Positions 54,022 through 56,644 of a stretch of 64,000 nucleotides of DNA are shown piece by piece (position 1 is the stretch's first letter; each line of letters begins with the position of its first letter). Location: positions 843,501-907,500 of the forward strand of contig NZ_JALJCW010000001.1 of assembly GCF_023634025.1 (NCBI RefSeq). The letters are read 5' to 3'. The DNA is from Hanstruepera flava. Lineage in GTDB: Bacteria; Bacteroidota; Bacteroidia; Flavobacteriales; Flavobacteriaceae. The position numbers were made by a program, and so were the translations under genes. The notes beneath the pieces were generated by a model. It did not search any database, was not told where the DNA came from, and saw only the letters and a list, made by a program, of their open reading frames with translations.

Positions 54022-54993
54022 ATGAGCAATTACCTAGACACCACTCTCGATGTTTATAAAGAAGCAGCATTGACGCCAGACATAGGCCTTTGCTGCACAA
54101 CAAATCCTATTTGGGAACTACCTGGTTTAAAAATTCCTAAAATAATGCAAGAGATGAACTATGGTTGTGGTAGTACGGTACATGCTCGTGATTTAACTAA
54201 TAATCCTAAAATGCTTTATGTTGGTGTTGGTGGTGGTATGGAATTGTTGCAATTTGCCTATTTCAACCGCCAAAAGCATGGTGTGGTTGGTATTGATGCC
54301 GTAAATGAAATGCTACAAGCTTCCCGTAAGAATTTTAAAGAAGCTGAAGCTTTAAACCCTTGGTTTAAAAGTGAGTTTGTAGATTTAAAAAAAGGGGATG
54401 CCTTAAATCTTCCTATCGAAGATAATAGCATTGATGTGGCAGCACAAAACTGCTTGTTTAATATTTTTAAAACCGACGATCTTAAAAAGGCCATTTCAGA
54501 AATGTATCGTGTTTTAAAACCGCATGGTCGTTTGGTTATGAGCGATCCCACGTGTGAACAACCTATGAGCAATACTTTAAGAAACGATGAACGTTTGCGT
54601 GCATTATGCTTAAGTGGAAGTTTGCCTATTTCAGAATACATCAAAATGCTTACAGATGCAGGTTTTGGAACCATTGAAATTCGAGCGAGAAAACCTTATA
54701 GAATATTGGATCCAGAGCATTATCCTACTGACGAATTAATTTATATTGAATCCATTGAAGTTGCTGCTATAAAAGATCCCGTACCAGAAGATGGCCCTTG
54801 TATATTTACGGGAAAAGCTGCTATTTATTACGGTAAAAACGATTATTTTGATGACAAGGCTGGTCATATACTACTGAAAAATCAACCGTTGGCTATTTGT
54901 GATAAAACAGCCAATGCATTGGCGTCTCTTAACAGTAATGATATATTTATAAGTGAATCCACATATCATTATGATGGCGGTGGCTGTTGTTGA
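54022..54993 (+). CDS. arsM: Arsenosugar biosynthesis arsenite methyltransferase ArsM
   Basis: 323 residues, SAM-dependent methyltransferase that makes mono- and dimethylarsenite. N-terminal Cys pair in PDIGLCCTTNP, Cys in MNYGCGSTVHA, SAM loop MLYVGVGGGMELLQFA, and QNCLFNIF; C-terminal Cys pair in DGGGCC at the very end. Thiols at both ends fit As(III) binding. Of the subfamily found with ArsS rather than the detoxifying short ArsM. Five bases after the PNP gene. Confidence 0.93.
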   Translation: MSNYLDTTLDVYKEAALTPDIGLCCTTNPIWELPGLKIPKIMQEMNYGCGSTVHARDLTNNPKMLYVGVGGGMELLQFAYFNRQKHGVVGIDAVNEMLQASRKNFKEAEALNPWFKSEFVDLKKGDALNLPIEDNSIDVAAQNCLFNIFKTDDLKKAISEMYRVLKPHGRLVMSDPTCEQPMSNTLRNDERLRALCLSGSLPISEYIKMLTDAGFGTIEIRARKPYRILDPEHYPTDELIYIESIEVAAIKDPVPEDGPCIFTGKAAIYYGKNDYFDDKAGHILLKNQPLAICDKTANALASLNSNDIFISESTYHYDGGGCC

Positions 54994-55745: not shown

Positions 55746-55799
55746 GTCATGACGAGTATCCAGACTGTAAACGTCTGGAGACATAGTAATCTCAAAAAC
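55746..55799. repeat. REP-like palindromic unit 1
   Basis: Begins GTCATGACGAG and ends GTAATCTCAAAAA, with an internal hairpin CCAGAC (55760-55765) / GTCTGG (55773-55778). Start and end match unit 2 at 55814; the middle differs. Such palindromic units recur in Flavobacteriia genomes, to my memory. Confidence 0.65.
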
Positions 55800-55813
55800 A
55801 AACAGGATACCCT

Positions 55814-55856
55814 GTCATTACGAGGAACGTAGTGACGTGGTAATCTCAAAAAGAAG
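55814..55856. repeat. REP-like palindromic unit 2
   Basis: Begins GTCATTACGAGGAACGTAG and ends TGGTAATCTCAAAAAGAAG. Arms GTCATTAC (55814-55821) and GTAGTGAC (55829-55836) pair with one G-T wobble. Tandem with unit 1 in the gap between the DUF547 and glycosyltransferase genes. Confidence 0.75.
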
Positions 55857-55876: not shown

Positions 55877-56644
55877 ATGAAAAACCAACTATCCATAATT
55901 ATCCCTGTATTAAACGAAGCCGACAACATTGCTTTATTATTAAATCATCTTATTAATAATTCATCTCCAAAAAATAGTACCGAAATTATTATTGTCGATG
56001 GTGGCAGCACCGACGGAACGCTAGAAAAGGTTAAAGCGTTCGTCACTTCGAGTGTGCCGACGTTTACCGTCGGTATGTATCGAGAAGGCGAACCAAAACC
56101 TGACACCCAAACCAACATCAAACTACTCCATTCCCCAAAAGGCCGCGCCAAACAAATGAATCTGGGTGCCAAACACGCTACCGGCAACATACTCTATTTC
56201 CTCCACGCCGATTCATTTCCACCTAAAAACTTTGATGCCCTAATTATAAATGAAATAGAAAAAGGCAATCAAGCGGGTTGTTTCCGCTTACAGTTTGACA
56301 GCAAGCATTGGTGGTTACGTTTAGCAAGTTGGCTAACACAATTTTCATGGCGCGCTTGCAGAGGTGGCGACCAGAGTCAGTTTATCACCAAAAAACTATT
56401 TGATGACATTGGTGGTTACGACGAAAACTATACCATCTACGAGGACAACATCTTGATAAATGAATTATACGCTAGGAAAAAATTTGTGGTTATTCAGGAA
56501 AAAATTAAAACCTCTGCCAGATTGTATCAAAAACATGGCGTTTGGAAACTACAATACCATTTTTGGACAATCTACGTTAAAAAATGGTTTGGCGCCTCGG
56601 CAGATGAGCTCTATAATTACTACAAAAAGCATATTGCCCTGTAA
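55877..56644 (+). CDS. TIGR04283-family glycosyltransferase with an in-frame repeat insertion
   Basis: 255 residues, GT2 fold: LSIIIPVLNEADNIALLLNHL, IIIVDGGSTDGTLEKVKA, the family motif SPKGRAKQMNLGAKHATGNILYFLHADSFPP (DxD-like HADS) and RGGDQSQFITKKLFDDIGGYDE. Works with the TIGR04282 protein in arsenosugar synthesis, by association. Residues about 55-80, between GSTDGTLEKVKA and IKLLHSPKGR, are extra compared with the family and are encoded by a REP-like element (56041-56090). The frame is kept and no key motif is broken, so the gene is probably functional. Confidence 0.9.
   Translation: MKNQLSIIIPVLNEADNIALLLNHLINNSSPKNSTEIIIVDGGSTDGTLEKVKAFVTSSVPTFTVGMYREGEPKPDTQTNIKLLHSPKGRAKQMNLGAKHATGNILYFLHADSFPPKNFDALIINEIEKGNQAGCFRLQFDSKHWWLRLASWLTQFSWRACRGGDQSQFITKKLFDDIGGYDENYTIYEDNILINELYARKKFVVIQEKIKTSARLYQKHGVWKLQYHFWTIYVKKWFGASADELYNYYKKHIAL
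56041..56090 (+). repeat. REP-like element inside a glycosyltransferase gene
   Basis: Starts CGTCACTTCGAGTG and ends GTATCGAGAAGGCG, with a central hairpin CCGAC (56057-56061) / GTCGG (56069-56073). The loop strand GTTTACC is the complement of the GGTAAAC-like loop of unit 1 at 55766, linking the two. It is read in frame as about 17 codons. Confidence 0.75.

Follow-up and report, generated by a model that had tools for sequence, protein, structure and literature searches.

Palindromic repeats read in frame within one loop of a TIGR04283 glycosyltransferase in Hanstruepera flava and other Flavobacteriaceae

Rickettsia palindromic elements (RPEs) are found both between genes and in frame in conserved genes, and at least one enzyme has been shown to tolerate the insert (PMC2229807). 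REPs carrying a terminal CGTC tag (or TGTC/CCTC) form predominantly head-to-head inverted dimers and are mainly intergenic, with some intragenic units and without an identified dedicated transposase, and the published families have stems of 8-9 bp, loops of 4-5 nt and a short unpaired CCA-like tail (PMC3733652). The mobility of CGTC-type REPs is considered an open question (PMC3733652). Bacteroidetes is named as a host phylum of CGTC REPs by Di Nocera et al. 2013, with Flavobacteria absent from the text, and in two Xanthomonas species different REPs have entered recB at roughly the same position (PMC3733652). Intragenic units are known also for GTAG REPs.

The window examined here, a stretch of 64,000 nt of H. 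flava, includes a gene assigned to the TIGR04283 arsenosugar biosynthesis glycosyltransferases both by the score of its product (235.7 bits; curated cut-off 182) and by an arsenosugar ArsM gene located two frames upstream (Table 1). Within this gene, a hairpin of the layout CGTCACTTCGAGTG-tip-TATCGAGAAG forms part of the reading frame, and the DGGS, GRAKQ and HAD motifs are all present and conserved. The hairpin starts with CGTC at 56041, its arms CACTTCGAGTG and TATCGAGAAG are both exact, and it was scored by a covariance model at 61.6 bits (E 3e-13). A preliminary description, made from the letters of the window, had reported a REP-like hairpin in frame in an arsenosugar glycosyltransferase, with the frame kept and no motif broken, and was right in sequence, coordinates, frame and catalytic motifs. 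As single-stranded DNA, positions 56038-56096 folded at -12.5 kcal/mol (z -2.5), and 3 of 200 shuffled sequences were equally stable. The tip sequence GACGTTTACNGTC was found in the window only at 55763-55775 (- strand) and 56059-56071 (+ strand), with 0.1 occurrences expected, in agreement with the relationship to 55760-55778 that had been proposed for the tip. The identity of the window tip GACGTTTACCGTC with that of an unrelated palindrome 280 bp upstream suggests that tips have been exchanged. The tandem repeats at 55750-55850, directly 5' of the gene, were not visible in the H. marina upstream stretch used for comparison.

Table 1. Features of the window at and near the glycosyltransferase gene.
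Feature	Position	Strand	Basis or remark
Arsenosugar ArsM gene (NF038099), context	54022..54993	+	574.8 bits; cut-off 400
Two tandem units of a separate intergenic palindromic repeat (GTCAT.ACGAG...GTAATCTC)	55750..55850	+	Sequence and inverted repeat; shared tip in first unit
Identical tip (GACGTTTACAGTC) nested inside a different palindromic repeat 5' of the gene	55763..55775	-	Sequence match
TIGR04283 family arsenosugar biosynthesis glycosyltransferase gene	55877..56644	+	GT-A fold, 255 aa
Complete hairpin with outer stem GTTCGTC / GGCGAAC (56038-56044, 56087-56093)	56038..56093	+	DNA fold
In-frame palindromic element, CGTC tag, arms CACTTCGAGTG / TATCGAGAAG, translation (F)VTSSVPTFTVGMYRE(G)	56041..56087	+	Covariance model R1, 61.6 bits
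Hairpin tip GACGTTTACCGTC	56059..56071	+	Common to upstream element
Inverted second half of a dimer, probably a decayed remnant (PDTQTN; FTRTDI in other genera)	56099..56116	+	Codon comparison, without model score

The element is not unique in the H. flava genome, where a pattern search identified 7 copies and the covariance model, built from 24 copies aligned from their real coordinates, identified 24. The context of all 24 was inspected, with in-gene assignments judged from open frames and inspection rather than from annotation, and 23 lie outside credible genes, as expected for an element described as normally intergenic; the sole in-gene copy is the one in the window. Short open frames over other copies were rejected as credible genes on inspection. 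Twenty of the 24 aligned copies start with CGTC or TGTC, one with TGTT and three with AGTC or GGTC. Six inverted pairs are present among the 24 matches, with the tags outside in four and inside in two, which places the inverted 'second half' found in other genera in the same family. The arm stem of 5 bp leads into a tip hairpin of about 9 additional pairs, and whereas the arms are nearly invariant, the tips vary widely yet remain paired. Covariation was 0.509 as compared with 0.151 in shuffled controls, double-changed cells numbered 67 as compared with 20.7, and slid controls collapsed. In a set of 104 distinct tips, an average of 5.6 of the outer 6 positions were paired, and 4.0 with shuffled partners. 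No CCA-like tail was evident by eye in the copies inspected, which end in GAGAAG or GAGAAC, and an Rfam search returned no relevant family for the element. In the best overall explanation, which is held with high confidence, the element is a non-autonomous REP-type palindromic repeat with a CGTC/TGTC tag, constant arms and a variable self-complementary tip, and it often forms an inverted dimer. It shares with the CGTC REPs the terminal tag, the occurrence of inverted dimers and a mainly intergenic location with occasional intragenic units, but differs in the 5-bp arm stem, the long hypervariable tip hairpin and the lack of an evident CCA-like tail. Given these differences in stem, loop and tail, the flavobacterial element is not filed in CGTC-1 to -4.

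Two further observations were made on other copies. One copy lies just 3' of a gene for a 159-residue protein (L011 and L140), and the copy and its near flank are identical at the orthologous place in H. marina; the contrast between this flank identity and the differing coding sequence nearby may reflect constraint on DNA or RNA, or conversion. In another genus (G017, contig C15, 33638-36837), at least 13 intact CGTC-like hairpins form an array with a spacing of roughly 180-490 bp.

From relatives and genome contigs, 80 orthologues were named, the closest being in Hanstruepera, and the loop was measured in 76. DGGS and GRAKQ lie 48 residues apart in the window protein and 25 to 82 residues apart across these 76 Flavobacteriaceae orthologues, with a minimal loop of 25-26 residues in 16. 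Both the insert and the element are absent from the short-loop orthologues. Relative to these the insert measures 22-23 residues, so that the insertion suspected earlier is real, though slightly smaller than the 'about 25' residues first estimated. An insert of equal length was present in one orthologue, that of the sister species H. marina (core identity 87%), with the same 18 codons at the same place; the covariance model recognised this insert as a decayed copy with both arms mutated (28.2 bits, E 1.3e-4), and its tip is unrelated to the window tip, although the arms match.

Recognised element DNA is present in the loop of 29 of the 76 measured orthologues. In Winogradskyella loops, complete inverted dimers are part of the reading frame (FVTSSDSERSEELYREA...VLDTKFQKKNFTRTDI), tip-less GCGCAGTC variants occur in loops L065, L078 and L087, and elements are nested in L067, L081 and L044. 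Palindromes of the GATCCTGAAnnAAGTTCAGGAT type, unrelated to the CGTC-like element, were found in loops L053, L047, L056 and L080, and those of a further unrelated family (AGGTTTTTnAAACCT) in L020, L074 and L056. As judged by sequence comparison, at least three unrelated families of palindromes have thus supplied the extra loop DNA, in some cases as tandem or nested copies. Of the 17 copies of the AGGTTTTTnAAACCT palindrome in genome G190, 16 are intergenic and one is in the glycosyltransferase loop. In each of four genomes the sole intact copy of the GATCCTGAAnnAAGTTCAGGAT palindrome is in the loop, at positions that match the gene loci. In a fifth genome (G188), four of the five intact copies were read in context, and all four are intergenic. 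Pieces of the element cluster in the loop sequence (11 kb), and almost none occur in the remaining 272 kb of gene and flank, with counts of 18:0 for the left arm and 17:1 for the inverted right arm; the noisy left-inverted piece was given no weight by itself in this comparison. The different REPs at one site of Xanthomonas recB are a similar case, but they concern two species of one genus, whereas the glycosyltransferase loop has received at least three unrelated palindrome families in many genera.

The loop was also the predominant coding location of the element. Among 77 intact copies in nine relatives, all of which were inspected, four are in credible genes, and all four of these are in the glycosyltransferase loop. 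A search with the element peptide across 149 genera of Flavobacteriaceae returned only three long-frame matches, each the glycosyltransferase gene. However, one of 36 further copies, mostly from other genera, lies in PurL (L273, G177), in frame and, by eye, in an apparent linker before the glutaminase part. Hence, the loop is not the sole coding target, and coding insertions elsewhere exist but are rare. As copies may be inherited, these counts do not represent independent events. Two in-gene flags outside the loop, at L158 and L171, proved to be a spurious frame and a stretch preceding a signal peptide and were rejected, and those at L192 and L197 were set aside on like grounds. The likeness to RPEs drawn in the preliminary description fits the behaviour of intragenic CGTC REPs and RPEs (PMC3733652, PMC2229807), in that the same repeat is intergenic and in frame in a conserved gene, and the element is best regarded as a functional analogue of RPEs, compared by behaviour. 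However, RPEs have entered many different genes of an obligate intracellular bacterium, whereas in the Flavobacteriaceae, here a Hanstruepera host, one enzyme loop was entered repeatedly and by unrelated palindromes; instead of a spread through many genes, the single PurL copy was found among the 36 copies inspected.

In the AlphaFold2 model of the window protein (mean pLDDT 86), most of the core is above 90 and residues 60-77, which fall between helix 48-57 and strand 80-85, are below 50. The model matched a GT-A fold (6p61, TM 0.81 on the target), and its topology would place the loop and the DGGS and HAD motifs at opposite ends of the sheet. The dN/dS ratios of 0.05-0.18 in the core and 0.24-1.19 in the loop indicate purifying selection on the gene core and relaxed selection in the loop. 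On the best reading, the protein is predicted to be a functional enzyme that tolerates an insert derived from a repeat and without structure, and the peptide encoded by the repeat would probably serve as neutral filler and add no new function. In the loop segment shared by L046 and L047, from two Winogradskyella species, synonymous divergence (0.05) was lower than in the core (0.36), in a small sample.

In the best explanation, a palindromic repeat has entered the loop between the helix after DGGS and the next strand (strand 80-85 of the model) and is read in frame. Selection would remove insertions almost everywhere else in genes, and as this loop would tolerate any stop-free, frame-keeping insert, elements would accumulate, nest, exchange tips and decay there. 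A search of the H. flava genome with the PF01797 (Y1_Tnp) profile returned no match above the cut-off, and a RAYT-like gene scored just below it. An initial reading of this genome as having no transposase was dropped, as this gene was found beside another palindrome family. The gene, for a RAYT-like HUH transposase (L206 / L241; contig C1, ~1483064-1483609), is flanked by AGACCTGTCAGGTTT palindromes, and its frame is stop-free through the 3' palindrome into hemF (494 residues); a similar frame of ~500 residues was found in seven other genomes searched. Among the RAYT-like genes examined, the flanking palindromes are of the AGGTTTnnAAACCT type, as at the H. flava gene, or of the CCAGAG type, and the AGGTTTnnAAACCT palindromes link the AGGTTT family to a transposase. 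As in REPtrons, in which REPs are mobilised by RAYTs, palindromes of this kind that occur in some loops flank RAYT-like genes, and the RAYT-flanking family has entered the glycosyltransferase loop in other species. In contrast, the CGTC-like element was not seen to adjoin any RAYT-like gene examined.

The same best explanation, very probably correct as a whole, holds that the loop is a family-wide landing site entered repeatedly by unrelated palindromes. It was weighed against a single ancient insertion of the dimer in the ancestor of Winogradskyella, Hanstruepera and relatives, followed by decay, deletion and gene conversion, with the loop being no recurrent target. This history would account for the common frame, position and dimer order (FVTSS...LYREA...VLDTKF...TRTDI) of the CGTC-like inserts across genera and for the decayed copy of equal length in H. 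marina, but not for unrelated palindromes in the same loop, even where neighbours are short-looped (L080, L074, L020), and as a full account we consider it unlikely. On a tree built from the glycosyltransferase core without the loop, presence and absence of inserts require at least 12 gains or losses. The tree has a weak backbone (34 of 85 inner branches open), too poorly resolved to count how often the CGTC-like dimer was inserted independently; for this dimer, a single old insertion followed by many losses is a possible history. Recurrence is favoured by L080, which includes a GATCCTGAA palindrome and a nested piece while its close relatives (82.6% core identity) have the minimal loop, and by L056 (W. 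pacifica), in which an AGGTTT palindrome takes the place of the CGTC element of its 97%-identical sister L046, a difference that also counts against a single insertion. That a naturally variable loop merely resembles a repeat by chance is scarcely conceivable. Variability is a general property of the loop, and no element is recognisable in several of the long loops, but the match spans 47 nt (61.6 bits), with two exact arms and a tip that pairs, and element pieces are nearly absent from the 272 kb of flank and gene; chance is refuted by copy number and covariation.

Repeated entry into the loop could also be mutational and not only selective in origin, if loop DNA or a resident palindrome attracts elements, through nesting of hairpin in hairpin or strand exchange at single-stranded or cruciform DNA. 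Nested and tandem elements in L081, L067, L044, L080, L047 and L100, the recurrence of the window tip in the unrelated element 280 bp upstream and the orthologous H. marina copy with another tip on matching arms are consistent with such targeting. However, the insertions in L074 and L020 are in lineages without a recognisable earlier element, no target-site duplication was apparent by eye, and tolerance and chance would give the same pattern, so that targeting is possible but on balance doubtful. It is also rather unlikely that the loop acts as an active landing pad, in which resident palindromes attract further elements, swap tips in place and funnel unrelated selfish palindromes into the loop; if it does, it would be a natural site for watching palindrome transposition and conversion. 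An improbable alternative to neutral filler is that the loop peptide is functional, for example as a partner-binding segment, with palindromes recruited as a supply of hydrophilic disordered sequence. The loop dN/dS is below 1 in seven of the eight comparisons giving a value (0.24-0.74), and the loop segment shared by W. thalassocola and W. psychrotolerans has a dS of 0.05 as compared with 0.36 in the core. Against a function, about a fifth of the measured orthologues have the minimal loop of 25-26 residues, the loop sequence is unconserved between genera, and the low dS comes from ~36 codons and could be explained by recent conversion or constraint at the DNA level.

No report on this glycosyltransferase loop, or on palindromes in TIGR04283 proteins, was found in the open-licence literature. 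As intragenic REPs themselves were already known, the new aspect is that one protein loop is repeatedly entered by unrelated repeats across a bacterial family. An orthologous loop in which palindromes have been received, nested, converted and lost provides aligned filled and empty sites for comparing boundaries, tip replacement and decay, and illustrates that repeat DNA can become protein sequence without loss of the gene.
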